Origin: Lenzites betulinus
Lineage: Eukaryota > Basidiomycota > Agaricomycetes > Polyporales > Polyporaceae
Assembly (NCBI GenBank): GCA_022264855.1
Contig: JABYQU010000047.1
Location: forward strand, 62,001 to 126,000
Length of the DNA stretch: 64,000 bases
Direction of reading: 5' to 3'
Below, one piece after another: positions 1 through 47,388 of this stretch (position 1 is its first letter; each line of letters begins with the position of its first letter). The position numbers were made by a program, and so were the translations under genes. Under the pieces are notes generated by a model, which was given only the letters and a program-made list of their open reading frames with translations, was not told the DNA's origin and ran no database searches.

Positions 1-162
1 CCGGTCGCACGGCCAGACTCCTGCTGCGACTACGATCCTCAGGCGCCCGCGACTCAGCCTGGGCGTGCGACGGCTCGCGACGGCTGCGACGGCTGCGCCT
101 CAGCCTGTTACGCCCGTGCCCAGCTGTACCGTCCCGGCCTCAGCGGACCGCAGGTTGCATCA
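1..162 (-). repeat. 3' LTR of the gypsy element, cut by the window edge
   Basis: Position 1 aligns with 11797 of the right-hand LTR, and both copies end in the same GCATCA (162 and 11912). Compared with the right copy, this one has a 46-bp insertion at 61-106, itself rich in TGCGA and flanked by CAGCCT, plus three substitutions over about 116 compared bases. All three read T here and C in the right copy. The outer part of the LTR lies outside the window. Confidence 0.9.
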
Positions 163-172
163 TCTCCCCCTC
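163..172 (-). other. Polypurine tract next to the 3' LTR
   Basis: On the minus strand the sequence GAGGGGGAGA runs directly into the LTR start TGATGC. A polypurine tract abutting the 3' LTR primes plus-strand DNA synthesis in LTR retrotransposons. Its place here independently fixes the element's orientation as minus. Confidence 0.8.
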
Positions 173-303
173 ACTGAGATCCCGACCGCCCTCGGTCGGC
201 CATCGATGCGATCGCGTGATAGACCCTGCGATAAAGGTTACCATTTGCCTGCGGAGGCCCACCTATCCTTTTCGCTCTCTCTCCTATGCGCGGTATTGCC
301 ACC

Positions 304-965
304 ATGGATAACTTGGTCGAAATCGAGGCCGCATCGGCTCGCCTGCGACAGACTACTATCTCCTTGGCCCGTGCACAGGTCGAAGAGCAGGCGGCCATGA
401 TGGAGGAGATGGTCGAGACCGGCTATAGCGTCGCAGATTGGGAGGACGCCATCGACCGCTTCCTGTACCGCACGGTACGTCCTATCGGCCATTCTCCTAC
501 TCTGCGAGCGATGCGATACTGAGTTTGCCTTCCTAGGAGTCGTACTTCTTGATTTCCCTCGGCGATACCGTGATGACGCCCCTCCTTACTCGCGCCCGAG
601 TGGCCTTGCGCGCCCTGGAACGACACAGCGAGTGCCGCGGCGCGGTCGCAGACTTCGACCGACGACTCTTTACCATGTCGCGCGACCTGGAAGGTGTCTT
701 CTTAGCTGCCGCCCGCCAGCGCCTGGTCCTTCTACGCTCTCGCTCCTCTGCGATCCACAACGTTCTTGCGATCGCGGGCGCCGACCGGTCCGTGGACATG
801 GCCCAGTCGCAGGATATCGCGGGCGCGATCGCCCGCCTTCAGTGCGACGTCGCGGCCGCCCAAGACGCCTACCGTGGTGGAGAGCGCACGGTACTGGTCG
901 ACCGCCCTGAGGAGGCCGGATGGGTCGCAGCCATGGAGGAGGTTGCGACTAATCGTTCGGGTTAG
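304..965 (+). CDS. Antisense cargo gene A, two exons, helical protein of about 200 aa
   Basis: Not recognised. Exon 1 is 304-474 (starting MDNLVEIEAA), the intron is 475-536 (GTACGT..CCTAG, 62 bp) and exon 2 is 537-965. Both junctions are phase 0 and splice into one open frame of about 200 residues. The protein is rich in Ala, Arg, Leu and Glu and looks alpha-helical throughout; I see no signal peptide, membrane segment or known motif. It runs opposite to gag-pol, between the polypurine tract and gene B. An intron on this strand would not be recognised in the genomic RNA of the element, so it can survive retrotransposition. ATG 304 was chosen because it opens the frame that splices cleanly; ATG 286 in the same frame is possible. 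The existence of the gene is inferred from splice consistency. Confidence 0.6.
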
Positions 966-1145
966 GAAGGAGGGAAGACACCTGGAGGCAGGAGACGAAT
1001 TGCGATGCGTGTAGTCTAGCCCATCGATGGATTAGATGTCTTGCGATCGGTTCCCGATTGCGACCTCGTGTGGCCCGCTCCTTTCTATAAGTCTGCGACC
1101 TGCGATGCGACCAGCCTGGTATCGCACGCCCCAGTACTCCGCGCC

Positions 1146-1749
1146 ATGGATCCCCTTCCTGACCTTGTCCGCGCTATAGACTCTCTCTGCGGCGAACTTG
1201 TCGACCCCGCCCTCTACCAGTTAGAGTCGCAGGTTGCGACCATCGAGGGCGCCCCTTCTTCCGTGGACTCGCCGGATATCCGCCACTGGCACGTCCTTGC
1301 GACGCGTGTCCTGGTCGCCATAGTGCGTATGCTAGCTGCTTCCCAGCGCAGTCATTGACCCGTAGTCGCAGGAAGCCTGTATTGCGATGGGTTGCGACCA
1401 AGCTCTTGTGGATTCCGCGACCGCCCGCGCCCTCTCGGTCCTGCGATCGCAGACTGCGTACCCCGACCTCGGCCCCTGGTTCCTGCGAGAGAGACTTCGG
1501 TACACAGCCGCTCAAGAATGCCTTACTCTCGAAGTGACTCGCGCCCAGCTACGTTTGTTGGTGTCACGGGCCGACGCGGCTCGCGGAGTGGCCAGTCGCG
1601 CGGGCGGAGCCGGGCATACATTGTCTTCTGCTCTTTCCAGCATCCGAGGGGCTTCGGCGCGCGCCTTGCGGGGAACTGAGCGCGCGCTTACCGAATTAGG
1701 GGAGATGGAGGTCGTCGGCCTCGGTGCCGCGGGGGCGGGACTGGACTAG
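1146..1749 (+). CDS. Antisense cargo gene B, two exons, helical protein of about 184 aa
   Basis: Not recognised. Exon 1 is 1146-1322 (starting MDPLPDLVRA), the intron is 1323-1371 (GTGCGT..CGCAG, 49 bp, with a TTGAC branch-like site) and exon 2 is 1372-1749. The join is phase 0 and gives about 184 aa: an acidic N-terminal part, then an Arg/Ala-rich helical part and a Gly/Ala-rich tail. Size, composition and gene structure resemble gene A, so the two may be a diverged pair or partners, but I see no clear sequence repeat. Same strand as A, 180 bp downstream. No targeting signal or known domain is visible. Confidence 0.55.
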
Positions 1750-2177
1750 TCAGGGGAGGCGGGCCGCCCGAAACGGAGGAGCAGGGAAGCCCGGCGCGGC
1801 CGCCGCTTGGCGCTATGGTGTATTTCTGGCGTGCCAATCCTAGCTCTGGCATTTGCGACCCATTGCGATCGGGGCACGATCTGGTGGGAACGCGTCGCGC
1901 GCTCCGCTGCGCTCTGAATGTACCCGCGTAGCGCCTGTTCGACTGGGTCGCGGCGCGTCAGCGCTAAGTCTCTGTGCGCTGGAAATTTGCTTCCGCGATG
2001 CTTCGGCGCTTGACATGCCGCGTGCTTGCGACTGTTAGCGCTTCCCGACCCTGCGCTGCTGCCGTCCGCAAGAAGAGGCTGCGAACAGCTAAGTACTCGT
2101 CGCATCGGTCGCTGGACTTGTGCTCTCTTCGTCCTCCCTCCGCTTACTCCCCCTCTTGCTTCCTCATCCCGCACACC

Positions 2178-4352
2178 ATGGCCAGCTCTTCTACGCCCGC
2201 CGCCAAGAAAGGCAAAGGTCGCGCCGACCCCGCGACCGTCTGCACCGAGACCGTGGAGTACCTCGAAGACTTGTTCAAGGCAGCTCCCGAGGGCGTCGCA
2301 GGCCCTTCCGACTACGCCGCCTTCGGCTTCTCCGCCTTGGGATGGATCGTACGTCCCTTGCGACTGCGACCGCTCCCTTTTGCTGACTTGCCTCCCCAGC
2401 ACCACCTAGAACGCTACGACGCCGAGCCCGCGCTAGTCGCTCAGTGGGGCGACCGCGTGTTCGCGGCTGTCGACGCGGGGCTCGGCGGCTACTCGGGCGC
2501 GGACGACCCCTCTCGCGACGACCTATACGTCGCAGCGCGCGAGCGCGCCGCCGCCGCCCTGGTCGCGCGACACGAGGAAGAAGCCCGGAGCGAGATCGAG
2601 GCTCGTCGCAAGGTGTGGGCAGACGCGCGCGCCGCGGCCGCGGACTCGGACGACGAAGACGACGTTCCCCTTGCGACCGCCGCCCCAGCTCGCCCCGCTC
2701 CGCCCGCTCCTCCCGCTGCTCCCCGGACCCGTGCGATGATGCGAGCGTCCAACGCCCCTCCGATCGCGGTGAAGGCTCCGGCCGCGACCAAGTCTGCGCC
2801 TCCCGCAAAGCTCGCGCCTGCGATCCAGCTCGCGCCCGCGACCAAGCCCGCGTCTGCGACCAAGCCCGCCCCACGTTGAAGGTCACTCCCGTGGCCAAGT
2901 CCGCGCCCGCGCCTGCCCCCGCGACGCCCCAGAAGTCCGCCGCACCGGCCGCGACCGCTCCCACGACCTCGCCCATCTCTCCGGCTGGCCCCTCGCGCAA
3001 GCGCGCCCGCGAAGTCGAGGACTTCGTGCTGGTCACGAAGCGACCGCGGACCGGCGAGGGCTTCGAGCCTGCGACCTACCCGCCCGGTGCGCGCCTGCCC
3101 TCGGGCAAGGAGGCGGTAAGTCTTTGTCTTGTCCGTCTGCGACCACACTAACCCCTCCCTTCTATAGTGTGCGCAGTGCCAGACCCTTGCGCGCCCCCGA
3201 TGCGTCCTGCGTCGCGGGGTACGCAAGTGCGACCGCTGCGTATACTCGCAGAAAGGGTGTTATGCCGCTGGCCACATCGACTATGGAGAGTGGTACGACA
3301 GCAACGGCTTCGACCGCGGTACGTCGCGAATTGCGCCCCCCTTTGAATTTTCTTGCGATATTGACCTCTTTCCTCGGCCTAGCGAACCCGCCCATCGGGC
3401 ACATCTGGCGTGCGGTCCTGACCGCGAAAGGTCGCCCCTCCGACATCCCGAGTGCTGCCGCTTGCCCGAAGGAGTCACGGAGGAGCAGGCGACCGCCCAG
3501 GAGATCGTCGACATCACAGCCGGTGTCGTCGCGCAGCACGCTGCCACTGGAGCCGCGACCGACCCCGCCCCTGCGATCGCGACCTCTCCTGCGACCGCGG
3601 CGGCGACCGCTCCCGCGACCACTCCTGCGACCGCGCCAGAGGCCGCGCCGAAGACCACGCCTAAGGCCACACCGAAGGCCGCGACGACGGTGATTACGCC
3701 CAAAGGGACGGGCTCCTTTCTCCTCCGGCCCTTCCCCCTCGCGCCTCGACGCCTCCGCCCGCTCCTCGCGCCCCGACGCCCCCTTCTGCGATCACAGCCG
3801 CCCGGGAGGAAGACATCACCATGGCCCCTCTAGCGCGGCCCAGGACGCGGAGCGACTTCCTTCGGTTTTGGTGAGCAAGTTGTTCCCTCCGGTACAGTAT
3901 ACTCGGCTGATCGTGTCCTACCCCGGCCAGGAGGATCTGCTCCACATCAGGACGCGACCTCCTCCGCGCACCTATGGGTCTTCTCGCACCATCGCGGGCG
4001 TGCCGAGCCCCTCGTCGCCCCGGTCGCGCGCTCCGGACTCCGCTGCCATTCGTCCTGCGATCGCACCGGTCGCGGGTCCCTCACGCGTCGCGCCTCGCTC
4101 CCACCGGCTGCGACCCGCCCTGCTCCTCCTACGCAAATGGAGCCGCCGCGCGACGAGGAAGTGGACGACCTCGCGAACGTCCCCGGGATGACGGAGGACC
4201 GCCGCCTCCTCATCCTTGCGTACCGCCAGGAGCGCGCCTTCCTCCGGGCCCGCATCTCCGCGCTGACCCACCAGGTCGCGGACCTCCAGGAGCGCGAGAG
4301 GGTGCTGCTCGGCCTTGAGTGGAGCGCGGCCGACTTGGAGCCCGAGGACTAG
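2178..4352 (+). pseudogene. Antisense cargo gene C: Zn2Cys6-like cysteine cluster and C-terminal coiled coil, frameshifted
   Basis: Start ATG 2178 (MASSSTPAAK). Introns by consensus: 2349-2399 (51 bp), 3116-3167, 3319-3382 and 3871-3930. The N-terminal third is helical and acidic, followed by a long Ala/Pro/Lys linker with basic patches (RKRAREVE). The exon at 3168-3318 encodes a cluster spaced C-x2-C-x7-C-x8-C-x2-C-x6-C, close to the fungal Zn(II)2Cys6 DNA-binding pattern (C-x2-C-x6-C-x5-12-C-x2-C-x6-8-C). The last exon (about 4137-4352) ends in a helical LQERERVLLG segment likely to form a coiled coil. The frame must jump by one base near 2865-2880, 3470, 3710, 3930 and 4110, so this copy is broken or mis-assembled. 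A DNA-binding role is inference from the cysteine spacing; no family name is assigned. Confidence 0.5.
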
Positions 4353-4632
4353 GGCAGCGTCGCAGGCCGGCTGGATGGACATGTAGATAGTTTTCTTGGG
4401 TTCGGACCTGTAAGTAGTCGCGTGCGATCGCAAGTTTGTACTCCGGTAGTCTCCCCTCGGCTCCTTGTATCCTTGCGGCCGCGAGCCAGTCGCAATCTAC
4501 GCCTCGTTCCTCTTTGCCCGCGCCTTGCTTGAAAGAATGTGAATGGAGAGATCGCAAGTGCGATCTCTCTGAGATACATAACTAGGGGTATAGGGTTGCT
4601 CTTGCGACGACGGTACGCTTGCGACCGCGACC

Positions 4633-6182
4633 TCAATCTGATTCGTCGCCTTCGCTGCCCCCTGGCCCTGCGAATACTGGCGGCTCGTCTAAGACTTCTG
4701 GTTCCGGGTCTTCTATACCGTCGTCCTCGGATGCGACTAGCTCGTGTAGCCTTTTGCCTGAGATATCTGCGAACCCTTCAGGTAGGGGTATAGCCTTGCG
4801 AGCTAGGTACGGGATGACTCGAAAGGCTGCGACCGGTCGGTGGAGCACTGAGCCATCCAGTTCGCAGAGTACGTATGCGCCTCCGCGATTGCGGGACACT
4901 ACCACTAGCGGGCCTGTGTACCGCGGTCGCATCTTGCGATTCAGCGACTTCTCGATCTGCGTATGTCGCATAAGGACCAGGGCCCCGGGTTTGAAGTCGA
5001 AGTCGCGTATGGTCGCAGCGTGATCGCGCTCGAACTTTTGGGCGGCCTCCACTCTCGCTCGGTAGACCCTTGAGTGTAGTGTAGCTAGCTGCCCTTGCCG
5101 CTTTTGGAGTTCGATCGCACGTCGCGCGATGAGGTCTTCGGTTGACAGAAGCTTTTCTGGCGCGGGCATGAGGTAGGTCGCCTCTGCGATATCCATAGGG
5201 AGGATAGGGTGGCACCCTGTGACCGCGAAGTAGGGCGAGCAGCCCATACGCTTGCGGACCGTGATGCGATCCGCCCAGAATACGTAGGGTGCGACCTGCG
5301 ACCACTTGGTCTGGTCGCCGTCCGCCGCCTTAAATAGCAGTTGTCGCAGATCGAAATGCGACCTCTCGACGATCCCGTTGGCCTTGGAATTGTACGCGCT
5401 GATACGAATATGGGGGAGGCCATATTTGCGCTGTAGTCTTCCGGCTGCACTGACGAAGGCCGACCCATTGTCGGTCACGATCTCCGAGGGTGCACCCCAT
5501 CGGCAGTACAAGTCTTGGAGGAGGAAGTCGGTGATGACCTTGTCCGTTTCTACTCGCAGCATGCGCCATTCCGTCCATGCGACACGGAGCATCGCGCTGC
5601 GACAATGTTGCGGAACCCGCCGGACGCCGGCATCTTCATGGTGTCCACGTACCATCGTACAAAGAGCGCGCCTGGTCGCGCGACCGTGGGTGGGATCAGG
5701 ATCTTGCGATGCGATCGCACCTGACACAGGTGGCACGTCTTGATGTACCAGGACACGTCCTCTCGTAGGGAGGGCCACCAGAAGCGTTCTGCGACCATCT
5801 GGAGCGTCGCGTAGTTGCCTCGGTGTCCTAGCTCGTCGTGCGCTCCCCGTAGTATGCTGAAACGTCGCTCAGGTCGCACTACTATCTTGTGCGCGCCTTG
5901 TGCGTCCTTCTTCCACAACCATTGGTCGTCGCAGAAGAATCCTTGTGCGTACTTGATCAGAGACGCGTACTGGCTATCCGTAAGGCCCAGTGGTCGCTGG
6001 AGCGTTCGGAGCCAGTCCGCAACTAGTCGCAGCCGCGCGTCGGCTTTGGTCGAGTGCTCGTTAGACGGTAGCTCGGTCTCTTGGTCTATCGCGGCCGCCT
6101 CTGCTTCTGTGTCGCTGCTCGCGCGATCCTCCCCCTCACTGAAATTTCGACTGTCCTCGGTCGCTTCGGATAACTCCAACAT
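4633..6182 (-). pseudogene. Gypsy integrase, one frameshift
   Basis: Reading minus, 6182 to about 5590 encodes the RNase H-integrase linker and the HHCC zinc domain (HDELGHRG then TCHLCQ). After a one-base shift near 5585, the frame ending at 4633 holds the catalytic core: VTDNGSAF with the second Asp, then NGIVERSHFD with the Glu of the D,D35E triad. Next comes the C-terminal GPLVVV/RNRGGAYV segment of the GPY/F type and an acidic tail (EDPEPEVLDE). Integrase inserts the element cDNA into host DNA. It ends 280 bp from the end of convergent gene C. The shift in this otherwise well-kept sequence could be recent decay or an indel error. Confidence 0.85.
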
Positions 6183-6255
6183 TGCGATCGCAGGCGTCTT
6201 GCGTCGCAGACGCGATGGGGGGCTAGGATATGGTGCATGAAGCCATGGACCTTGT

Positions 6256-8053
6256 CTATCCAGTCCTCGAATTCGTCTGGGTCTTCCGTGGGGTCATCTC
6301 GGGTTGTGGGTTGCGACGCGACAGGCCGTCTGGGCCGTGCGACGTGCCCGGCACATGTACCAGGTGGAAGTGGAAGGTGAGGATACCCAAGATCCAGCGG
6401 TTGATGCTTGCACTGGGCGCGAGGTCCGGATTCTGTAGCATTCCGCGGATATATCGCGCGTCGACCTCGACTATGAGGTTGCGAACTCCTACTAGGTAGA
6501 TCTTGGTCGCTTGTAGTGCGCGGAACAGACCGTAGAGCTCTAGTTTTGGTTGCGAGAAGCGCGCTTCGCGCTCGTTGAGGGTGATGGACCCGAAGCGGCT
6601 GTAATAGCGCTTGCGAAGGTCGTCTGGGTCGCATTGGCAGAGGTGGTAGCCTACTGCGATGTAGGATGTGTCGACTGCGAGCACCACTGGCGCTCCATTG
6701 TCGTAGTCGATCGCCCGTAGCGCGGGGGAGGCCAGGAGCGCCTCTCGCAAATCGTCCATTGCTGCGATCTGCGCCTCTCCGAATTCGAATGGGCGTCTTT
6801 CCTTGTGAGTGCGACCAGCGCGTGAGCCCGTCGCGCGAAGTTGCGTATGAAGATCCTTGCGACGCCTACGGTCCCCAAGAAGGCGCGTACCTCCGAGAGG
6901 TCCTTGCATGTGCGCCACTTCTTGATTGCTGCGACGCGCGATTCGTCTGGCTTGCGACCTTCGGGGGTGCACCGGTGCCCTACCACCAGTATCTCGCGGG
7001 CGCAGAGGATGGACTTCTTCCCAGAGAACGTCCCGCCTGCGTACTTCATGCGCTGGACGATGCGATTGTTGTTCTGGAAGTGTTCCCACACAAAACGACG
7101 GATCCCTGGGTTCTCTGGGATGGTCGCGTAGGTCCCTCCTTCGTCGCGATAGTCTGACGCAGGCCCCTTACAGGGTACATCGTCGATGTAGGGGACCGTG
7201 ATCTCAGGTATTTCCGGTCGCAGGATGTAGGTGACGTCGTCGTGGAAAATTGGTACGGAATTCGACCATCCCATAGGGAGGGTACAGTGTCGCAGCGCCC
7301 CGTAGGGCGTCTGGAAGGTTGTGAGGTCGCGCGATGACTCTGCGATCAGCCTCTCGTCGTACCCCACGTAGAGATCGAAGATCGCGCCGCAGGCGCGACC
7401 TCCGAACTGTTCGGCTAGGTAGTCGGGCGTAGGTGTTACTCCAGAGTGTTGGATGGTAACCTTGTTGAGTGGCTCTAGACTGTGTACAATTCGCAGCGAC
7501 TTTGCGTCCTTTTTGAGGACGCAGAACCATCGCGACCGATAGGAGGAGTTGGATGGCTCATAGACGCCGGCTGCGATCTTCTTCTTGAGCATGTCGCAGA
7601 CCTCGCGGTAGAGGCCTGGGGGTATAGGGATATTGCGCTCCACCCAGGGTGTGTGTGGTAGCACGGGAAACTCGACGGGGGGAAGAATTCTGGCTTGAAG
7701 CAGCCGCGCTCTGTGTCGTCCCACGCGAACGCCTCGTTGTGTTGTCGCATGAAGTCGTGTAGCAGTTTGCGCTCTTCTGCCCATAGGAAGTCGCCTCCAT
7801 GCGCCTCGTCCATGGCTTGCTTGCGCTCCTCGGTGTAGCGCCCAGTCGGTACGAACGGGGGCGGTCGCGGATTCAGTCTAGGCATCCCCGCTAAAGGGTC
7901 GCCAGTGATGTTGCGCTCTATGCGGAACTGGCCCGGTACGGTGCCTAGACCGGTCGCACCTTCTGCGCCACGGGCTTGTACTTCTTTTTGGACTGTATGA
8001 AGATCCCGGCTGGGGATGCTGCGTCGCGGTTTGCGACCGAGGTGCGACCACAA
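6256..8053 (-). pseudogene. Gypsy reverse transcriptase and RNase H, frameshifted
   Basis: The piece 8053-7680 encodes the RT lead-in (GDFLWAEERK, NEAFAWDDTERG). It continues after a shift near 7680 in the frame 7680-6790: RT fingers and palm with YEPSNSSYRSRWF, LPMGWSNSVP and the active site PYIDDVP, then the thumb (VGHRCTPEGR, RAFLGTVG). After another shift near 6800, RNase H follows to 6256 with LAVDTSYIAVG, REARFSQPKLELYG and VHVPGTSHGPDGLSRR. Together these copy element RNA to DNA and degrade the template. Catalytic Asp residues of the RT are present, so breakage is by frame only. Confidence 0.9.
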
Positions 8054-8490
8054 AGGAACCGGCGTCGGTTTTGTACGCGAATGCGAACGGCCTCTGCTGG
8101 CGCCCAGAGGTTAGGGGGGTATCGGGGACCGCGGGTTGCGCCGCGGTCGCAGGGCTTGCCTGGCCCGCGGGCGGTCGCAGGCTGGGCCCTCAGGGGAGTC
8201 GCAGGAGAGAAGAAAGACGAGAATCACGGGTCGCAGACGGGATACTGGGTTCGCTTTGTGGTTCTTTTGATAATAAGTGGGCTTCCATAAGGCCCGAGAG
8301 ACGGTCGCACGCAGATAGGTAGATAGCAGGGATAGAGAGAGAACGTCCGGTAACTGGGTATATGCGCAGATCTGCGGTATGCCGAACTCTTCGGTAATGA
8401 CCACCGCGATCGCATCGCCGTCGCAACTAGTCAGATCTCTAGTCGCGGGCTTGGGGGCTGGTTGGGCCCGAAAGCGAGCGCGACCGCGGG

Positions 8491-9260
8491 TTACGGTCGG
8501 GATAGTCGCGATCTGTCCTGTGTTCGGCACTTGATCGTGATCGTCTGGTCCTCGTTCTCGAAGTTCTTGACGACGCTCTTGGTAAGGACGTCGAACGGTC
8601 GCCCTAGTAGGAGGTCGTAGGCCGCGTTCCGTATCACATGTACTTGGAGGTACAGTACGATCTCTGCGACCGCGAAGGGGACGTTCCGCACGAGCCCCAG
8701 TGACTGGTCAACCTCTCCGTTCGCAGACTGCATATTGAGGCGAATGGTAGGGTCGTACGAGAGTCCTAGCGCGTGGCAGACGTGCTCGGACATCGCAATG
8801 ATCATACATCCCGGGTCGACGATAGCCTCGACATACTCTTTCGAGTCTACCAGCCCCACGATGGAGCGCAGGGCGTGCGACTCCTTTGCGACCGTAAGGG
8901 AAGCCTTGTCCGGCCCCGGCGCAGTCTCACGCAGGTATACTTCGTAAGGGTCCGGCAGTATGAAGCCTCCAGGTTCGAGCGGGTCGCCGCTGCATGATAG
9001 CTGCGTCGCGAACTCGTCGATGACTTCGTCTACGTCTGCGAATGCGACCGTACGAGTCGCAGGGGGAACCCTCTTTGGCGTGACCGCCTCCCGGAAACGC
9101 GCGCTGATCTCAGGCGCGACCGATAGCAGCTCTTCGGTGGACAGGGTGATGACCGGTGTTTTCATCGTGCGTGCAAAGATTTCCTCTGCGATCTTGGTCT
9201 GATGTACTGGGATCTGGTTCCTGTACGCGGGCTCTCCTGGCTTCGGTTTCGGCGGGGGTG
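8491..9260 (-). pseudogene. Gypsy aspartic protease
   Basis: From about 9260 the frame reads Pro-rich, then GEPAYRNQIP and ARTMKTPVI, into a retropepsin-like domain with the catalytic DPG at VDPGCMIIA (about 8800) and the family's LLGRPF flap-end motif near 8600. It matures the Gag-Pol polyprotein. The true frame runs on upstream of the ATG at 9165 into gag, so gag and protease were one polyprotein. The ATGA overlap of the gag stop and this ATG is accidental (see rejected items). The linker to RT at about 8050-8490 is in further shifted frames. Confidence 0.75.
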
Positions 9261-10841
9261 CCCCGAAGTTGCGTGTGGTCGGTGGCGCGTAAGTCGCATC
9301 GCGCGACTTTGCGAACGGATGCTCGGGTACCCTCCAGTGTTCGTGGCCTGCCTCGCGGAGGCGTGCGACGTTATGGGCTGAGCGCTCTCGCGCTCTTGCG
9401 ACCTGTCGCGACTGGGCGCCGTCCTAAACGTAGTGTCCTGTGTCATTCCGCCGCGTCCCGGCTGGCTCGCTGGATAGCTCGACAGTCCCGTGTTTGCGTC
9501 GCGCGACATTGCGACCGGCGTTCGCGAACTTGGGCCGTTGCTCGGTGGCGGTACGCGCGGGCTCGTCTGAACAGGAGGGGGGGGTAGCGGTCGCGGATCG
9601 CGCGATCCGCTTGGGGGCGGAGTCCCCGGTCGTGGCCGTTGGGTAGGTCGCCGATAGGAAGGTACCTCTACTCCGTCGAAGCGTTCTTTGGTCCGTCGCA
9701 GAGCGTAAAGCTCGTACTCCAGCTGTGCGATCCGGTCTTCCGTCGCAAGCGCAAAGCCGCTCGCCGTGTACGGGTCCTCTGCGATCTCGAACACCATCTG
9801 CGACGCCGGCCGCGACGCGAGCTGATTGGGATTGCGACGATGCCACTCGTAGACTCGATCGCGCATAGTGAGGCCATTGAATCCATGCATGAACCTGGGC
9901 ACATACATCCCGTTGGGTAGACAGACCCGTCCTTCGTGGTTCCGGATACACCGCCCTGCGTCGACGTCTTCCTGGACAAAGGGGCAGTTCCGTAGCATGC
10001 AGCCGGCGTTCCCGCAATAGTGGCAGAAGCCGTCGTTCTGGTCCTGCGTCGCGTAGCTCCCCGACAAGCGATTCTGTTGCGACTGTGCGGCAGGACCAGG
10101 GGCGTTTCCTCGCTCGTTCACGGACTGTGCGAGCAATCGCAACAGAGGGGCGAGGTCTTCCACCTTTACTGACGGGTTCGCGACATTTGCGGTCGCGTTG
10201 GCGCTAGATGGGAGGGGGGCGGTTGCGAGCGTTCCGTGGAGGACAAACTTCGCGGCCTCGTACACTTTGTTTAGCTCGTAAGGGTCGTCCGGATAGTGGT
10301 CCGGGTCTTTGAGCTGCAGCCTCTGCGACACTTGGTCCCATAGGGGAGCGCGGATTCCTTTGACGAACAGACGCGACTGCTCGGACGTCGACAGTCGCGC
10401 TTGCGATATGAGGTAGGTGGTCATCGCGAAGAAGTCGCGATAGTAGCTGGATAGCTCGGTGATGCTAGTGATTGCGACGGCCGCTCGTCTTGCGACGAGT
10501 GCCTCGACATCTGCGACCGAATATTTGCGCGACTCTTCCGCGCCAGGGTATAGGTCTGTAACCGCTTTGACGAACTCGCGATACGCGACTCCAGCTCCAT
10601 AGGCCGGGAGGCTCTCGCAGAGCTCGGATACGTCGATCGGTAGGTACCGCACTACCCACTGCTTGCGCTGTCGGTCCTCCTCTACTCCGCTGCGCTCGAA
10701 GAGCGCTTCGATATCTTGAAAGAAGCGTCGCAGCGTACGCGGCTGTTCCGGAGTGAAGGTGGGCGCGGTCGAGTGACCTCGCGCTGGCATGGCCGGTCGC
10801 AACTGCGGCGCTGGTGGTGGCGCTTCCTGTGGTTCTGGCAT
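9162..10841 (-). pseudogene. Gypsy gag (capsid and nucleocapsid)
   Basis: ATG 10841 (MPEPQEAPPP) is the first ATG. Seen in order: a capsid-type helical region (FFQDIEALFERSG, WVVRYLPID), then the zinc knuckle CHYCGNAGCMLRNC near 10010, followed by NGMYVPRFMHGF and a long Pro/Ser/Arg-rich region. The knuckle is C-x2-C-x4-C-x4-C: the usual His is Cys. From about 9410-9440 the genuine frame (PEHPFAKSRDATYAPP) continues one base over into protease, so the last ~80 residues of the frame ending at 9162 are not real gag. Gag packages element RNA in cytoplasmic particles. Confidence 0.8.
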
Positions 10842-11696
10842 AACGTCCACGAATGGGTTCTCGAAGAGGTCCTCTAAGGGGGACAGGGGGGAATGAAAGG
10901 CTGGCGCTTGGTATTCAGTCGGTTCGCGGCCTTCCGAGTCGCGTGGTGTGGGACTAGCGGGTGAGAGGCTGGTCGGGGAGAGGTTTGCGATGGCTAGGGC
11001 CGCGTCGCGGAACCAGTCGCAGGCTGCGGGGTCGCGTCGCAGAAGTTCGCAGCCGCGGTCGAGGAGAACAAAGACCGGTTCTATGATCGCAGAGAGCCTC
11101 TCGTCGTCTAGGTGGTGGCTGAACTGGGTGATGAGCAGCTTGAATCTTGCGACGAGTAGCTCGGAACCGAGATCGGGATCCTTGGTCGCTGCTCTTGTCT
11201 TGCGCTTCGGCGCCTGTTGTGTGCGTTGTCCCGGCTCAATGGCTGCTGCGACGACTGCCGTTTGGCCCGGGGAAGGAGGAATGCGGACTACTGCTTGCTA
11301 TATCCCCCTCGCGGTGGGCTCCAAAATGATGCACTGGAACCTGCTATAACAGCAGGATAGAGGGCGCGGCCGAGAGCCTAGGGGGCGAGGCCGGACGTAG
11401 TGCGGGGAGGGAAGGATAATGCCTGCGAGTAAGGGCCGGTTTCCCTTCACTGGGCTTCCACGAAGCGTCGCAGGTCGCGGTCGTCCTGCTATCGCAGAGG
11501 GAAGGTGGGTACGCGGTCCGCCGGTTCTATCGCAACCGGTCGCAGTGCCAGCAAATTGGTAAGGAGGCGTGGACGGGGCAGTCGCGATGGTCAGAGGAAG
11601 CCGCGATCGCAGTCACAAGTTCACGTCGCAGCTCGCGGTCGCAGTTCGCAGTTCGCAGTCGCAGTCGCAGTCGCAGTCGATACCAGGGCCGGTCTA
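10842..11696 (-). other. Gypsy leader with an ATG-less open gag extension
   Basis: The gag frame stays open upstream of its first ATG for 456 bases, from 11297 to 10842, with protein-like composition (LVARFKLLITQFSHH, DWFRDAALAIANL). No ATG exists on this strand between 10841 and about 11755. Either the original start codon was lost, translation starts at a non-AUG codon, or an indel hides the start. The stretch 11300-11640 shows no further gene. A possible primer-binding site on the minus strand begins TGGTATCGAC at about 11685, with only its first seven bases matching the canonical TGGTATC. Confidence 0.5.
11641..11679. repeat. Hexamer tandem array GCAGTC/GCAGTT
   Basis: About six tandem copies of GCAGTY in the leader between gag and the 5' LTR. 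Each junction re-creates TCGCA, making this the densest block of the element-wide pentamer. Confidence 0.85.
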
Positions 11697-11912
11697 TGAG
11701 ATCTGAGGGGTGGGGATTGCTTGCCTTCTGAAAACTACGAACTACGGAATATATACATGGACGATACCGGGTCGCTCTCCCAAAGTCCGAGATCAGCCGG
11801 TCGCACGGCCAGACTCCTGCTGCGACCACGATCCTCAGGCGCCCGCGACTCAGCCTGTTACGCCCGTGCCCAGCTGCACCGTCCCGGCCTCAGCGGACCG
11901 CAGGTCGCATCA
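11697..11912 (-). repeat. 5' LTR of the gypsy element
   Basis: 11797-11912 aligns with 1-162 (minus the 46-bp insertion there). The outer end is TGATGC on the minus strand. The inner end is less certain; 11697 is proposed because the plus strand there starts TGAGAT, giving a TG..CA LTR of about 216 bp with TGA/TCA ends. A TATA-like TGTATATATTC on the minus strand at about 11747-11757 could be the promoter. The five bases after 11912 (CCGTG) are the expected target-site duplication; its partner is outside the window. Confidence 0.75.
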
Positions 11913-12152
11913 CCGTGGTTCGATGTTGTGGCACATGTATGTAGCGTATAAGCTGAGGGTTTCGGCGGTGGGGTCGATGGGAAACGCGTGCAGGTGGATG
12001 AAGTTCAAGTAACTGTTCAAGGCGGAGGAGTACGTGAGTCTGGTACTGGAGTCGAGCGCGTGTCCGAGAGCGATGGCGCGCTCGTGCACGAGTCGTTCGA
12101 GGGTCCAAGGCTGCCTTGGCGGCTGCCGGGACCGTCGGGAGGATGTGATCAT
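11913..12152 (-). pseudogene. Tyrosine recombinase, N-terminal part only
   Basis: ATG at 12152 overlaps the RT-RNase H stop (ATGA). The 80 codons present contain a typical SAM-like core-binding domain (LVHERAIALGHAL, STRLTYSSALNSYL, ETLSLYATYMC). This precedes the catalytic R..HxxR..Y domain in phage-integrase-type recombinases, and that catalytic part is missing here. The reading frame runs directly into the gypsy LTR after codons for NIEPR. The complete enzyme would integrate circular cDNA of the element without target-site duplication. Confidence 0.8.
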
Positions 12153-14020
12153 GACCGGACGACCCCCAGCGCGTCTTGAGGGGGAATGAGGTGTAGGAGG
12201 GTGATGTCGGGAACGCGTTCTCGGACAAGGTCGAGCTTGCCACGGGAGAGCGCGTCCGCCACAACGTTGAGTTCGCCAGGCACGTGGTGTACTCGGACGT
12301 CCAATTCGCAGTCGAGCATGACGTTGACCGCGCTTTTGAGGATGGAGTTGTAGGTGGGGGAGGCGCGCAGCGAGTTGAATATTGCCACACTGTTGGAGTT
12401 GTCGGATAGTATCGCCATGCGCTTGACGTGGCGGCCCGCGCGGCGCCAGATGCGCGCACGGTGGATAGCTGCGCAGATCGCGAGCGCTTCGAAGAAGAAT
12501 ATTGTGCCGGAGGGAGCGCCGCGGGGCAAGCTGCAGTGGAAACCGAGCTTGGACCAGGGGAAATACACGCCGAGACCTGAGCCCGAAGCGTCCGTGAGGG
12601 CGAACTCGTCGCCGAGAGCGTCCTGGACGAGGTCTGAGGGTTGCCATGCATTGGCGTCGAGGAGATGAACGCCGGACGCGCGAACGATGTGCGCGCGGAA
12701 CCATTTGAGGTCGCGGACGATCGCGGAATTGAGGTAAATCCCTGCGTGGCGGTCGGACTTGCCGGCCATCTTCTCGTACATAGCGGACAAGGCGGGCTTG
12801 AGCAGGGGATAGGCGTTGAATGCCCAGTTGGCATAGCCTGTGAACGATTGAAACTCTGCCAGGGAGCGACGGCGGTGGCCAGTCGAGATGTTGCAGAAAT
12901 CGTCGATGCATGCGAGAAGGCGTTCGCGTCCCTCGAGGGGGAGCGATACGCGCATGCTGTTCGGATCGACGTCGAGGCCGATGATGGGGAGTAGCGGGCC
13001 GTGCAGTTGCTTGGCTCGCTCATGCGGTACTCCGATATCGTCCCAGAGGCGAAGGAGACGAGCCTGCGGGGTCGGAAAGTACTGCGAGTACGGTTCGTAC
13101 CACTCGACGTCGCCCAGCAAGGCGAAGCCGAAATCGTCGTCGACGTAGTTGTGTTTGTTGCGTACGCCGGCTTTGTGTTCCGCGAGCCAGCTAACGAGAG
13201 AGTCGAAGGCGGCCCAGACTTTCAGCGATCCGCGACCTCCGAAGAGATTGCACCGATCGACGTGTCGTGCGTTGTCGATGGTGACGACTTGTCTGATCTG
13301 CCAGTAAGGTGAGACGGGCATCCGGCGGTAAGCCTGCGATACGTCTGACTTCCACATGATGAGGTCGGCCTCCGGGTTCGCGCGCCTGAAACGGCGCAGC
13401 GCATCGCCGAGCGCGGGGATCCCATCGAGGACTGCGCCCTTGATAGCTTCCGGACGTATCATGGAGTTGAGGGAGAACTCGCCGGCGCTTTGATCGTTGA
13501 CCAGTCGAAATTTCGTGGTATGCGGCTTGGGAACGACATGTACGGGCATCGAGTACATACCCGGCAAGAGGTCGCTCCCGAACGCCTCCGAGTAGCGGTC
13601 TAGTGCGATCTCTTCGTCTCGCTGAGCGCGCAGGAACGCGGCCGCTGCTGCGTCGAGGGGCGCGTGACGCCGCTCGTCCCAGGTGTCCGGGTAAGCCTCC
13701 GGTTTCGCGTCCGCATAGGGCCAGAAACCCCCGCGGAGCGCGCGAACCACAGACTGTGCGAAGTCTTGGTTGGGGTGATCCTGCAAGAGAAGCTCGAACC
13801 GGTCGACGTTGACCGGCGTCACGATCTTGAACAGGTTGGGATATTTTTTGAGTGTCCCATTGACGACGGGATCCTCGCGTACTGCACGCGGTACTCCCGG
13901 GACGGGGTGGTGCGTGAGTGATACATCCGCGAAACGCCGCAGAGGTGTCGCGTGGTCGTCCCATACGAAGGACCGTAAGAAACGCGGCTGATGCGCGTCT
14001 TCACGCGTCGTGTCGCGCAT
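12149..14020 (-). CDS. Reverse transcriptase-RNase H of the YR retrotransposon
   Basis: ATG 14020 (MRDTTREDAH) was chosen because it overlaps the gag end by 20 bases and opens the conserved region; 623 aa. RT palm motifs are seen: LIMWKSDVSQAYRRMP with the first Asp and NYVDDDFGF with the YxDD pair. RNase H follows with FALTDASGSGLG, a Glu in FFFEALAICAA, AILSDNSNS and HHVPGELNVVADALSRG, so the full DEDD set is present. The frame is undamaged. It copies the element RNA to cDNA. The RNase H 'VVADALSRG' ending is typical of DIRS-group elements. It ends with an ATGA overlap to the recombinase, suggesting coupled translation. Confidence 0.9.
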   Translation of the reverse strand: MRDTTREDAHQPRFLRSFVWDDHATPLRRFADVSLTHHPVPGVPRAVREDPVVNGTLKKYPNLFKIVTPVNVDRFELLLQDHPNQDFAQSVVRALRGGFWPYADAKPEAYPDTWDERRHAPLDAAAAAFLRAQRDEEIALDRYSEAFGSDLLPGMYSMPVHVVPKPHTTKFRLVNDQSAGEFSLNSMIRPEAIKGAVLDGIPALGDALRRFRRANPEADLIMWKSDVSQAYRRMPVSPYWQIRQVVTIDNARHVDRCNLFGGRGSLKVWAAFDSLVSWLAEHKAGVRNKHNYVDDDFGFALLGDVEWYEPYSQYFPTPQARLLRLWDDIGVPHERAKQLHGPLLPIIGLDVDPNSMRVSLPLEGRERLLACIDDFCNISTGHRRRSLAEFQSFTGYANWAFNAYPLLKPALSAMYEKMAGKSDRHAGIYLNSAIVRDLKWFRAHIVRASGVHLLDANAWQPSDLVQDALGDEFALTDASGSGLGVYFPWSKLGFHCSLPRGAPSGTIFFFEALAICAAIHRARIWRRAGRHVKRMAILSDNSNSVAIFNSLRASPTYNSILKSAVNVMLDCELDVRVHHVPGELNVVADALSRGKLDLVRERVPDITLLHLIPPQDALGVVRS

Positions 14021-15245
14021 TCTTAGTGCATTCGTGCTGCGTATGTTTTTCTCCTCCGCAGTTTGAACAAGCGTGGCGGTATCTGCACTCGCTGGCAAGG
14101 TTCCGGCATCCCTTCTCGCTGTTGTATTTCCGGCACGCGTCCTTCTTGCGGTTTCCTCCTGAACCGCGTCGGCCCGCTCCGCCGGACTTGGTTCCTCCCG
14201 CGGACGCTTCAGCGTGATGGACGTTCGCGCCACAGGAGTCGATGAATTGGATCTTGAGATCGGCGAAGTCGCCGACGTCGGTGAGGAGTGATCGCCGGGA
14301 GCTGCCGACGCGCTTACGGACGGCACGGTCAAAGTCCAGCACGCGTGCGTGAAACGCTGGCGCGAGGGCACCGAAAAGCCCGATGATCTGGTCTCCATAT
14401 GCGTCCAGTTCCTCCCGGCGGTGGGGGAAGGCGAAGACGGTGGCGACGGATGCTCGTTTCCAAGCGTAGACCCAGTCTCCGAAAGAGCTAACCTTCTTAG
14501 CAACGACGGGCGCGCGGAAGGAGAACTCCAGGTCCCCGATTCGCTCGGTGGTCTTGTCCTCAGGTCCGGAGGTATATCGTCCGGCGAACACGTGGTCGAG
14601 GTCGACCGCGCGTCCGGTAAGAATGTTCGTCCATTCGGACTCCGGGAACTCGGGTACTGATGGCGAGGCGCTAAGGTCTCGCTTGGCTTGAGTGAGATCT
14701 GCTCCGTAGATCCGGATGAGTTCGAGTGTGCGTAGAATGTGCGGGTGTAGTCGAGTCTCGAGCAGGAAATCGGTCGCAGCCCAAGCATAGCTAGAGGGGT
14801 CCGTTCGCGGTCGTTTCGCTCTAGGTTCGTCCTCGTCTCCGTCGGATGCGGGGGACTGTCCTCGCTCAGACGGTGTATCAGGTCGCGGCGTACCTGCGGC
14901 TGATCTGGCTGATGCCCGTTCGGAGTCCCACTGTGTCGGTTCGACCCTCTCAGGCTCTCCTGCCGCTCCTCTGGGTGTCCCCCCTGATCCGGGCTCGCTG
15001 GTCCTGTGCCTATCGGTCTCATCAAGCATGGCGAGGTACGATTGGAGGGTACTGTCGTCGCCGGCGGCTCCGGCTCGCTGGGCCTCGAGGCTGACGAGCT
15101 GAGTCGTGATAGCAAACAAGGTTTGAGTCTTTCCGCTAACGCCGTTCCGGTAGTCCTCGACTGCTTTGGCGCATGCATCAAGTACGAGCTGGGTTCCGGC
15201 GGGAGCGGTGTGCGTTGCTTCTTGCCCCTGACCATGTTCGGACAT
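14001..15245 (-). CDS. Gag-like protein of the YR retrotransposon
   Basis: First ATG at 15245 (MSEHGQGQEA); 414 aa. The N-terminal helical part is followed by an acidic/basic linker (DGDEDEPRAKRPR, possible nuclear localisation signal) and a capsid-like helical region. The C-terminus has two zinc motifs: a CCCH finger (C-x8-C-x6-C-x3-H) immediately followed by a C-x2-C-x4-H-x4-C knuckle (CSNCGGEKHTQHEC). The last 20 bases overlap the RT ORF in another frame. Likely binds and packages element RNA. Uninterrupted. Confidence 0.85.
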   Translation of the reverse strand: MSEHGQGQEATHTAPAGTQLVLDACAKAVEDYRNGVSGKTQTLFAITTQLVSLEAQRAGAAGDDSTLQSYLAMLDETDRHRTSEPGSGGTPRGAAGEPERVEPTQWDSERASARSAAGTPRPDTPSERGQSPASDGDEDEPRAKRPRTDPSSYAWAATDFLLETRLHPHILRTLELIRIYGADLTQAKRDLSASPSVPEFPESEWTNILTGRAVDLDHVFAGRYTSGPEDKTTERIGDLEFSFRAPVVAKKVSSFGDWVYAWKRASVATVFAFPHRREELDAYGDQIIGLFGALAPAFHARVLDFDRAVRKRVGSSRRSLLTDVGDFADLKIQFIDSCGANVHHAEASAGGTKSGGAGRRGSGGNRKKDACRKYNSEKGCRNLASECRYRHACSNCGGEKHTQHECTKNARHDA

Positions 15246-44976: not shown

Positions 44977-47388
44977 TCACGCCTTCTCCTGGTCGAAGAA
45001 CGCGACGAGCTGGCCGACCGGCACCTTCTTCCGCCCAACGAGCGCGGCGGGCGGGACGGGCGCGCCCTTGAGGAGCGCCTCCTGCGTCTGCCGCCGCACG
45101 ACGAGCGGGTCGACGAACCGGCCCGACGTCGGCGTCGTGGGCGGGATCGGCGCGCCCGTCGCGCCCTCCGACAGCCCGAGCCCGAACCGGTCCGTCGAGC
45201 GCGCGCGCACGCGCAGCGGCGTGATCGGCGCCGGCGCCGAGATCGCCTGCGACGCGAGCGGCGTGTACATCGACTGCGGACGCACGCGCCGCCCCGGCGA
45301 CGGCGACGGCGACGGCGCGTCCGCGGGCGGCGCGCGGAGCTGCCGCCCCGCGGTCTTCCCGATCGTATCCTCGCCCGCGCCGGGCGACGCGTCGTCCGAG
45401 TCGTCCGCGTCCGGGAGCGCGGCCGCGAACGACGCGGGGGAGCTCGAGAGGAGCGCCATGCCGAAGTCGCGCGACTTGGAGCGCGAGTGCGAGTGCGCGC
45501 GCGCGCGCGGGCCGTCGTCGGGCGGGCTGCGCTCGCGCTCGCGCGACGCTTTCATGATGGGCTCGCCGAGTGCGGCCGTGTAGCGTTTGCGCGGGGTCGG
45601 GCTGGCGCTCGACGGCCTCCAAGCGGGCGGGTTGGGCGCCGGGAGCGCCCCAGGGCTGGTGGTGTCGTTGGGCGACTTGGCGGAGGGGAAGCCTGAGGGC
45701 GACCCACTGGCAGAGAACGCGTCGCCTTCTGGACCGGGCAGACCTGCGATGGACATTTGGCGCGCTCGCGTCGCAGAAGTAAGAGAGGCGGGCGGTGAGT
45801 TCGTAGGCGAGAACGGGCCTTGTCCGAGCGTCGAGGAGTCAGGAGGCGAAGCGTAATCTCCTGTTGGGTATGGTAATCTCGTGCGAGATAAGCGGTTAGA
45901 AGGCACGGGGGTAGTAACGGGTGGGCTGGTCGTGCCGGCTCTGGGGGGCGTCGCGCGCGGTGGGCTGGTGAGGGCCCGGGAGATCGACTGCACTGCGACA
46001 GAGGAGCTCGTGGATGGGGCTCGGCCGATTGCTGCAGGACTTCGAGAGGGACCGGAGGAGAGATTGTTCGGCGCGGTCACGATTTTGGCCATTTCGCGAC
46101 CGAGCTCGCCAATGCGCCCTTGGAGCTCTGCCATCTCTTCGCGAATGTCGCTCAGCGCCCTATCGGATATACCGTTGGCACCGCCATTTGGGGCGTGCGG
46201 ATCCTCCTTTTCGCGCTCCTTTTCAACAAGCCAGCGTTCGACGTCGTCCATCCGTTCTTCCAGCGCGCGCACATGACTGACAGTCCATTTCTCCAGCTTC
46301 TCGAAGCGTTTGGTGATGGTGAGCAAGGTACCGGGGACGTCGAGTGCACCTTGAGCGTTGAAATGGGCATACATCGGCTGCGTAGTGCGAGATGGCGAGG
46401 CGCCCTCCATTTCGGAACTGGCGCCACGGAGAGGAGACGCCGCCAAGCTAGGTGGTGTGCTCATGGGCCCGGCATGCGTTGATGGTGATGAAGGGGCAGC
46501 GGAAATGGGTCGAGCTGTAGGAGCAGCAAGACCAAGTTTGATGAAGGCGGGATCGTCCAACTTGCCGTCGGGAGAGGAGGGCCATTCTTTACTCCTCTGT
46601 TTCTTCTCTGTCTTACCCGTCTTCTTCTTCTTCTCTTTCTCCATTTCCTTGTCGCGCGCCTTAGTGTCCTGTATGATCTGTTGGGCGGGTGTGAGAGGAT
46701 CCTTTGTCGGCGTAAGCCTCTGCTTTGCCAGCGTCCACCAATTGGCCTCCTTTTGAGACGCAGATGGGGAGGGGGGCGTTCCAGGCATAGTTTGTGCACG
46801 TGTCGGGGGTGGAGGGAGCGGGCCCTGTGCAGCTGGATTGGCCTGAAGCATGGCCAAGACCCGTTCTTCTACCGTCCGCCTGTCTTCAGCTTCCCTAGCG
46901 AGAATGCGCTCGGCCTCACGCCTGCTCTGCTCGCGCTCTCTTTCAGCCTCCGCCTCAAGCTCTTCATCTGTCGGGAGACCCGGGGATCGAGTGCTCATGT
47001 TGCTCATCAAAGACCCAACGCGCTGGGCGAAGTTTGCCGCAAACTGGCCGACCGATGGTGAGGGGGACTCAGGCCGCTGTCCCCACTGATGACTGCTGCT
47101 TGAATCTTCGGAAGGGTGGGTGGAGGAGGTGTCGCTGATCTCGCCCGTAGCGGGATCGATAGCGAAGCCGTTTCTGAGGGGCGATGGGGGTCGTTTATGA
47201 CCGTATACAGGCTCCGGCTTGGAGTGGAAACAGTTAACGCGTCGGACACGCATGCGCGCTGAACATGAACTCACTAAATCCAACGGAGACGGTGGGGGAG
47301 GCAGGGACATGCGTCGCTGTTGGGTGCCTGGCGCGACAAGATGGGCATTAGAGCCGGAGACTGAGTTTCTGTGGGAAGGAGAAGCCAT
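44977..47388 (-). CDS. Large disordered protein with central coiled coils
   Basis: ATG 47388 (MASPSHRNSV) to 44977. A consensus in-frame intron at 47218-47274 (GTGAGT..CCAAG, 57 bp) is likely; with it the protein has 784 aa. No known domain. A first charged helix (DEELEAEAEREREQSRREAERIL) and a second (KRFEKLEKWTVSHVRALEERMDDVERWL then EEMAELQGRIGELGREMAKI) look like coiled coils. The rest is Ser/Pro-rich with many SP/TP sites and an Arg/Ser stretch (ARAHSHSRSKSRD). The C-terminal ~60 residues (VDPLVVRRQTQEALLKG, VPVGQLVAFFDQEKA) look conserved and folded. Composition suggests a phosphorylated scaffold or cytoskeletal protein; function unknown. Confidence 0.7.
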   Translation of the reverse strand: MASPSHRNSVSGSNAHLVAPGTQQRRMSLPPPPSPLDLVSSCSARMRVRRVNCFHSKPEPVYGHKRPPSPLRNGFAIDPATGEISDTSSTHPSEDSSSSHQWGQRPESPSPSVGQFAANFAQRVGSLMSNMSTRSPGLPTDEELEAEAEREREQSRREAERILAREAEDRRTVEERVLAMLQANPAAQGPLPPPPTRAQTMPGTPPSPSASQKEANWWTLAKQRLTPTKDPLTPAQQIIQDTKARDKEMEKEKKKKTGKTEKKQRSKEWPSSPDGKLDDPAFIKLGLAAPTARPISAAPSSPSTHAGPMSTPPSLAASPLRGASSEMEGASPSRTTQPMYAHFNAQGALDVPGTLLTITKRFEKLEKWTVSHVRALEERMDDVERWLVEKEREKEDPHAPNGGANGISDRALSDIREEMAELQGRIGELGREMAKIVTAPNNLSSGPSRSPAAIGRAPSTSSSVAVQSISRALTSPPRATPPRAGTTSPPVTTPVPSNRLSRTRLPYPTGDYASPPDSSTLGQGPFSPTNSPPASLTSATRARQMSIAGLPGPEGDAFSASGSPSGFPSAKSPNDTTSPGALPAPNPPAWRPSSASPTPRKRYTAALGEPIMKASRERERSPPDDGPRARAHSHSRSKSRDFGMALLSSSPASFAAALPDADDSDDASPGAGEDTIGKTAGRQLRAPPADAPSPSPSPGRRVRPQSMYTPLASQAISAPAPITPLRVRARSTDRFGLGLSEGATGAPIPPTTPTSGRFVDPLVVRRQTQEALLKGAPVPPAALVGRKKVPVGQLVAFFDQEKA

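Follow-up and report, generated by a model that had tools for sequence, protein, structure and literature searches.

The window analysed here is a stretch of 64,000 nucleotides (nt) from Lenzites betulinus, corresponding to C51:62001-126000 of a 37.4-Mb assembly in 108 contigs, with position 1 of the window at C51:62001. Positions 1..11912 hold a long terminal repeat (LTR) retrotransposon, referred to here as a member of family F1, in which the pentamer TGCGA and its reverse complement TCGCA occur 187 times, evenly over the whole element. An earlier note on this DNA gave the element as 1..11912; it starts 470 bp before the window. The left LTR (C51:61531-62162, 632 nt), delimited by blastn with the right LTR and by the position of TGATGC, therefore reaches into the window only with its right-hand part, at 1..162 on the minus strand, which forms repeats with 11797-11857 and 11840-11912; in the orientation of pol it is the 3' LTR. 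The right LTR (11327..11912, minus strand), the 5' LTR in pol orientation, has 586 nt, is 46 nt shorter than the left LTR, and contains a short tandem array of the pentamer. Aligned with each other, the two LTRs show 46 gap positions and 9 mismatches. They are flanked by CCGC and CCGT, so that this copy has no perfect target duplication. Adjoining the right LTR is a putative primer-binding-site region (11302..11326; TGGAGCCCACC on the minus strand), assigned by its position and common to the sister family F2.

Between the LTRs, the minus strand encodes the usual replication proteins. A gag-like open reading frame (ORF) of 562 amino acids at 9162..10850 matches no Pfam family at E 0.001 and was assigned by its position. 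It is followed by an aspartyl protease at 8491..9165 (Asp_protease_2, E 1.6e-7), reverse transcriptase (RT) with RNase H at 6256..7784 (RT_RNaseH_2, E 8.5e-12), and an integrase at 4633..6182 (Integrase_H2C2, E 8.7e-19; the rve core at E 6.8e-5 falls below the curated cut-off of that family). The RT ORF itself (6651-7784) matches no Pfam family at E 0.001 and was recognised from its 1389 homologous proteins, the best 120 of which include many with RT or RNase H families; the named RT proteins among them, e.g. from Meripilus and Grifola, point to a basidiomycete host. With protease, RNase H and integrase placed by Pfam and RT by homology in this order between paired LTRs, the element is classed as a Ty3/gypsy-type LTR retrotransposon. 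A Pfam scan of ORF 4633-5778 (E 0.001) found only rve and no chromodomain after the integrase, and the element is accordingly not placed among the chromoviruses.

Two or three genes antisense to pol lie on the plus strand between the integrase and the left LTR, with splice sites read by eye. Gene A (304..965) has exons at 304-474 and 537-965, including an ORF at 549-965, and carries the pentamer in its exons and its intron. The putative gene B (1146..1749) comprises ORFs 1041-1358 and 1387-1749 and has uncertain intron boundaries. Gene C (2178..4352), recognised from its translations, has several exons and encodes a candidate DNA-binding protein; its exon at 3168..3317 aligns as a six-cysteine cluster, CX2CX7CX8CX2CX6C, followed by a conserved GEWYDSNGF stretch. 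In the window copy the reading frame of gene C changes near 2879, in exon 2.

The 187 sites (111 TGCGA and 76 TCGCA) amount to 15.7 per kb, about one per 64 bases. Dinucleotide composition predicts 35.4 (z 25.5, first among pentamers) and a second-order model based on trinucleotides predicts 52.2 (z 18.4). TGCGA is also first in the ratio of element to rest of window (5.75), and in raw numbers only the overlapping GCGAC (209) exceeds it. Among the hexamers that contain it, TGCGAC (109) and CTGCGA (92) are followed by TTGCGA (51) and TGCGAT (50). The 59 bins of 200 bp across the element hold on average 3.12 sites with a variance of 2.85, and one bin is empty, which indicates an even spread. The other 52 kb of the window, from 12001, contain 141 sites, or 2.7 per kb, a slight under-representation (z -2.0). 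The density is 2.5 per kb in the right flank (11913-13500), and 1,030 bp of left flank outside the window contain no site, so the saturation stops sharply at both edges, as the earlier note had claimed from hand counts. Its counts of 33 (1-1500), 30 (4501-6000) and 4 (12001-13500) are exact, and the stretch 60001-61500 holds 5 rather than about 4. Comparably dense GC-rich host sequence, which would have spoken against its proposal, was not found in the window: no 1.5-kb bin outside the element exceeds 8 sites, and the GC-richest (45001-46500, GC 0.695) has 7. Directly beside the element, 12149-15235 on the minus strand is a 1028-amino-acid ORF with a YVDDD motif and no Pfam family at E 0.001, which looks like part of another retroelement.

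The pentamer occurs in every kind of sequence within the element. Exons hold it at 9.5-15.7 per kb. Introns, LTRs and two intergenic stretches reach 24-39 per kb, and the remaining non-coding stretches have 12-15 per kb; the lower density in exons is roughly what the constraint of the protein code would give. The right LTR (11330-11912) has 27 sites per kb. Short tandem arrays are present in both LTRs and in gene C. A single local array as the cause of the excess is ruled out by the even spread and by the z of 18.5 (trinucleotide model) that persists without the LTRs and the repetitive gene C segment. Over the whole genome TGCGAC is not enriched (25,226 occurrences against 26,784 for its reversed control), whereas close triples are, with 226 against 18 for TGCGAC and 1,070 against 159 for TGCGA. 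Most of the TGCGAC triple clusters among those listed lie in F1 elements. The main exception is a minisatellite at C1:321415-324458, whose unit of about 26 bp contains TGCGAC in a sequence unrelated to the element and which supplies many of the listed clusters outside the element.

The amino acid sequence does not account for the excess, as the earlier note had argued from the variety of codon pairs involved. In the pol ORF of locus L047, TGCGA occurs in all three frames, 23 times in sense and 25 times in antisense orientation. Synonymous codons were shuffled 300 times in 19 ORFs, from 4 of the 9 F1, 10 of the 14 F2, 3 of the 5 F3 and both F4 loci described below, and 512 pentamers were ranked. 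TGCGA came first in all four F1 pol ORFs, with z from 7.6 to 10.5; the highest value is that of L047, with 48 observed and 14.8 expected. This result and the spread over frames and orientations rule out codon bias and amino-acid composition as the cause.

Related elements in the same genome carry different words. A genome search with RT gave 118 matches, 30 of which were taken as loci falling into four groups, F1 to F4 (L068 and L072 being one copy), and a search with the cluster exon of gene C gave 31 matches at 30 places (L019 and L020 being one place) in three groups. RT identity is 93-100% in F1 (74% in one decayed copy), about 80% in F2 (down to 61% in decayed copies), 85% in F3 (54% in one decayed copy) and 47% in the two F4 loci; the pol sequences of F1, F2 and F3 are 65-73% identical to one another. 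TGCGA is the top pentamer at all nine F1 RT loci (eight copies). Of the 12 F1 gene C loci, which represent 11 places, eight have it on top, three have the overlapping GCGAC on top, and L011 has it third. In F2, CGCGC leads at all 14 RT loci and at all 12 gene C loci, and near gene C the F1 pentamer TGCGA does not rise above background. In F3, CGCGRA, GCGGAA and GCGAA are modestly over-represented (z about 5-8), and GCGAA and CGCGA take the first two places under synonymous shuffling in all three ORFs (z 4.2-5.4). The best pentamer of F4 reaches only z 4.2-4.5 at its two RT loci and at most 3.9 under synonymous shuffling. The words of the three families with gene C matches, TGCGAY (F1), CGCGCGC (F2) and YGCGRA (F3), have GCG in common and family-specific flanks.

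The difference between families is found even where the encoded protein is the same. Over the 429 residues identical between F1 and F2 pol in runs of at least three, TGCGA occurs 14 times in F1 and 5 times in F2, and CGCGC 25 times in F2 and 10 times in F1. At residues identical between F1 and F3, the counts are 16 against 7 for TGCGA and 5 against 13 for GCGAA. The stop of the F2 word at LTR edges was inspected in one copy, C46:194877-200352 (L039:4877 to L040:352), which carries the word at 67 per kb from LTR to LTR, against 2.5-8.4 per kb outside. Its LTRs are identical at 872 of 872 positions and it has a CCGG target duplication, lacks gag, protease and RT, and keeps genes A and C. It is classed as a recently moved non-autonomous derivative, indicating that recent movers can lose the replication genes yet keep A and C. 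Two further F2 gene C places, C20:24643 and C55:23852, likewise have no RT match nearby among the RT matches listed. In the neighbourhood of the same copy, 2.8 kb away, L039:1-2053 is an inverted repeat with 989-nt arms that are 99% complementary and 75 nt apart; the surrounding DNA is AT-richer and CpG-poor (observed/expected 0.34 over C46:190001-192500). Tandem arrays of the type TGCGAAC were seen at C12:407886-407987, C12:394377-394479 and C4:2662-2764, the first of them near the edge of an F3 element, as the TGCGAC array is in the F1 LTR. This suggests that the F1 and F3 words grew from a common LTR array by a one-base change.

Sites are also retained between diverged copies. The TGCGA sites of the window were followed in other copies and compared with control pentamers of like composition, with the control counts for Fisher tests rebuilt from rounded fractions. 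In copies with the other allele of gene C (see below), 28 of 38 sites are kept in L014 against 53% of controls (p 0.011; totals 38 and 38), 23 of 33 in L016 against 45% (p 0.006; totals 33 and 34), and 9 of 12 in L013 against 43% (p 0.034; totals 12 and 17). These three are copies of one allele, 81-84% identical there, and are not independent. In F2 and F3 the window sites are kept less often than controls (10-17% against 25-29%), as expected if the word changed.

Gene C is strongly divergent between F1 alleles. Between two of them (window against L014 and L016), bins 2101-4200 form a sharply bounded block of 69-84% identity, whereas the LTR, gene A, gene B and pol bins compared agree at 94-100% (for copy C60 the comparison took in the full set). 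The synonymous divergence (dS) reaches 0.6-1.0 in gene C but only 0.05 in gene A and, between L047 and L045, 0.11 in pol. Nonsynonymous divergence (dN) within F1 is 0.026 in the cluster exon, where dS is 0.69-0.86 and dN/dS 0.03-0.04, 0.015 in the C-terminal part and 0.22 in exon 2; for gene A of the window and L005, dN is 0.007 and dS 0.046. Gene C is thus under purifying selection within F1. The high dS with low dN in the cluster and the C-terminal part is read as the exchange of two old, divergent and probably functional gene C alleles between otherwise near-identical elements. Between families the cluster exon is only 39-43% identical (dN 0.56-0.62). Its first cysteine loop, constant in length and nearly constant in sequence within F1, has 7 residues in F1, 6 in F2 and 11 in F3, and differs in sequence between families too. 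For gene A, a homologue was found in F3 (31% over 97 amino acids, E 1e-11) and no homology was detected between F1 and F2; for gene B none was detected between F1 and F3.

The Zn(2)-Cys(6) cluster of the Gal4 type (PF00172) has the spacing CX2CX6CX5-12CX2CX6-8C. The gene C cluster resembles it in its six cysteines and in the arrangement CX2C...CX8CX2CX6C, and differs from it in giving no significant profile match. The usual first half, CX2CX6C, fits F2, whereas the first loop has seven residues in F1 and eleven in F3. No homologues of the gene C protein outside this genome were found in databases, a result that does not establish their absence, one query being alanine-rich and the other giving no word-sharing candidates.

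A word that is family-specific, neutral as to strand and laid over genes is most simply accounted for by the binding of double-stranded DNA by a factor that differs between families. The earlier note had proposed binding sites for a protein of the element or of the host; the synonymous, frame, strand and retention evidence supports the sites, and the different words of sister families in the same nucleus favour a protein of the element's own. Among the antisense genes, the cysteine cluster and the pattern of change make gene C the candidate binder. There is, in our estimate, an even chance that the whole element has been selected to carry sites for a DNA-binding protein that it encodes itself, most likely the product of gene C, with an anti-silencing role comparable to that of the VANC proteins of plant VANDAL transposons. 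Under this proposal the zinc-cluster-like gene C product would bind the dense sites sequence-specifically and would coat only members of its own family. Coated copies would stay accessible or transcribed, and anti-silencing or self-activation is, by analogy, the most likely effect of the predicted binding. More sites would mean more transposition, and sites would accumulate wherever the protein code permits; when gene C changed its specificity, the family word would change along with it. A fuller version of the proposal is held more tentatively, at somewhat below even chances: the entire element, coding DNA included, would carry a self-recognition code written by synonymous choice, each family would read its word with an antisense-encoded zinc-cluster protein of its own, gene C alleles would be swapped between otherwise near-identical elements, and word and reader would diverge in step, which would keep families in one nucleus from activating each other.

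Several observations weigh against this proposal. Against the trinucleotide model the F2 word reaches only z 4.6-6.1 and the F3 word z 4.5-6.9, and the F3 word is modest on every test. Under synonymous shuffling CGCGC is first in 8 of 10 F2 ORFs, being level with CGCGA in L055 and absent in the fragment L067. CGCGC is also mildly favoured elsewhere, with z 5.9 under synonymous shuffling in an unrelated Ty3-type element (L073:768-4804, labelled a chromovirus from a reading by eye and not from a search) and z 4.9 in a window ORF outside the element. It reaches 33 per kb in the host stretch 45001-46500 (GC 0.69), inside an 846-amino-acid open frame on the minus strand. CGCGC can thus be dense without F2, and the F2 word is less exclusive than the F1 word. 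Of the 14 closer F1 pairs, 12 retain the sites at a rate a little higher than controls and two, L002 and L003, at a rate a little lower. The one closer pair tested, L005, gave p 0.19, with 47 of 64 sites kept (totals 64 against 50), in a confounded comparison that included about 850 nt matching pol at 64-73% (bins 5101-5999) and taken for a neighbouring element. The apparent lack of gene C in F4, the family without an outstanding word, speaks for the proposal, but it rests on a sequence search that sets a lower bound, in which F4 places are absent from the cluster exon matches at E up to 1, and on the F4 stretches L073 and L074, in which no gene C-like antisense ORF was recognised by eye. The cluster gives no significant Pfam match: the PF00172 profile (Zn_clus) has none in F1 or F3 and in F2 only a match over 12 residues at E 1 and 10 bits (cut-off 21). 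The cluster alignment has no significant match in the PDB, and a single-sequence AlphaFold2 model of the cluster exon alone is poor (predicted local distance difference test, pLDDT, 63; predicted template modelling score, pTM, 0.35). Genes A and B could be the binders instead, and three families are too few to prove that protein and word vary together. Relatives at the DNA level in other species were not found in collections of viral contigs and of non-eukaryotic genome contigs.

Other explanations have to be set beside a binder encoded by gene C. The sites may serve a host DNA-binding protein, either a transcription factor or a chromatin protein, with each family adapted to a different host factor. 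Such a factor could favour sites in LTRs and coding DNA alike, and the mild preference for CGCGC in other sequences of the genome fits it. However, sister families in one nucleus, with pol as similar as described, would each need a separate factor, TGCGAC shows no genome-wide enrichment, and a density of this order over 12 kb is far above the needs of a promoter; a host factor is thus considered unlikely. The element's own Gag or integrase could be served instead, in compaction of the cDNA or in aiming insertions into or away from existing copies, and such a binder, too, would be element-encoded, sequence-specific and active along the whole length. Yet the word differs between families whose pol is conserved, the sites extend through introns and antisense genes, and the two insertions inspected adjoin CCGG (F2) or CCGC/CCGT (F1) and not the word, all of which makes this explanation improbable.

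A neutral origin, through biased mutation or copying in reverse transcription, slippage or gene conversion, is judged about as improbable. The tandem arrays in both LTRs and gene C show that slippage contributes locally, and many sites are inherited among closely related copies. Nevertheless, the word is evenly dispersed and keeps its excess outside the LTRs and the gene C repeats, it tracks synonymous freedom, and the words differ between families of one host whose machinery is similar. Least probable is a signal in RNA (packaging, export or splicing), which the sites in leader and LTR would suit, but against which speak the near-equal orientations in L047 pol, the palindromic core CGCGCG of the F2 word and the presence of sites in introns and in genes that run the opposite way; the packaging signal that the earlier note had offered as an alternative is weakened on the same grounds. 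Its other alternative, a methylation signal, loses weight with a CpG observed/expected ratio of 1.21. This ratio is 1.21-1.31 in F1-F3, where CpG is not depleted, 0.76 in F4, where it is, and 1.33 in the unrelated element of L073, which has only a mild CGCGC excess. A word excess driven by methylation is weakened as a cause by the undepleted CpG, which agrees with escape of F1-F3 from methylation and also with youth or GC content.

Components of the proposed system are already known from other transposons. VANC proteins bind dense family-specific motifs, leading to the loss of silencing marks (PMC5735166, PMC10398659). As with VANDAL21 and VANC21 or VANDAL6 and VANC6, a family here is packed with its own short motif and related families have other motifs; motif density may act as a mark of self, part of the motif load lies in tandem repeats, and the element encodes a protein with conserved and variable parts (PMC5735166). 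The parallel drawn in the earlier note therefore holds for a dense family-specific motif that is rare elsewhere, as seen in F1 with its 187 sites against 2.7 per kb elsewhere in the window and in the other words of F2 and F3. It does not extend to the arrangement of the sites. In the part of the literature consulted, the VANC21 motif of Arabidopsis VANDAL21 lies mainly in non-coding tandem repeats in one orientation (PMC5735166), whereas the present case is a fungal LTR retrotransposon with dispersed single sites in both orientations that fill coding DNA and with a candidate protein antisense to pol. The element is not classed as a member of the VANC system, since this tandem-repeat feature was looked for and is absent.

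Antisense genes in LTR retrotransposons are known as well. Boty-like elements of Botrytis cinerea are Gypsy elements with an additional antisense gene, brtn, and thus resemble the present fungal element, although the parts of that account consulted mention no saturating motif (PMC8365987). The plant LTR retrotransposons Grande (gene23), RIRE2 and Retand carry additional antisense ORFs between pol and the 3' LTR, some products of which are nuclear and whose function is described as unknown in the review (PMC7264820). They differ in their hosts, and motif saturation is not mentioned in the parts of that review consulted (PMC7264820). The open-access literature consulted yielded no fungal LTR retrotransposon in which a family word fills the element, which is not proof that none exists.

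If the proposal is true, sequence-specific self-recognition of transposons, known from plant VANDALs, also arose in fungal retrotransposons; in the fuller version, a retrotransposon would have invented a VANC-like system independently and superimposed the code on its genes. Self-recognition could then reshape protein-coding DNA over 12 kb. The antisense genes described here offer a direct handle on the function of such genes in LTR retrotransposons. With their related words, and a candidate reader in each, the three families make up a natural series in which the co-evolution of DNA-binding specificity and its target can be studied.

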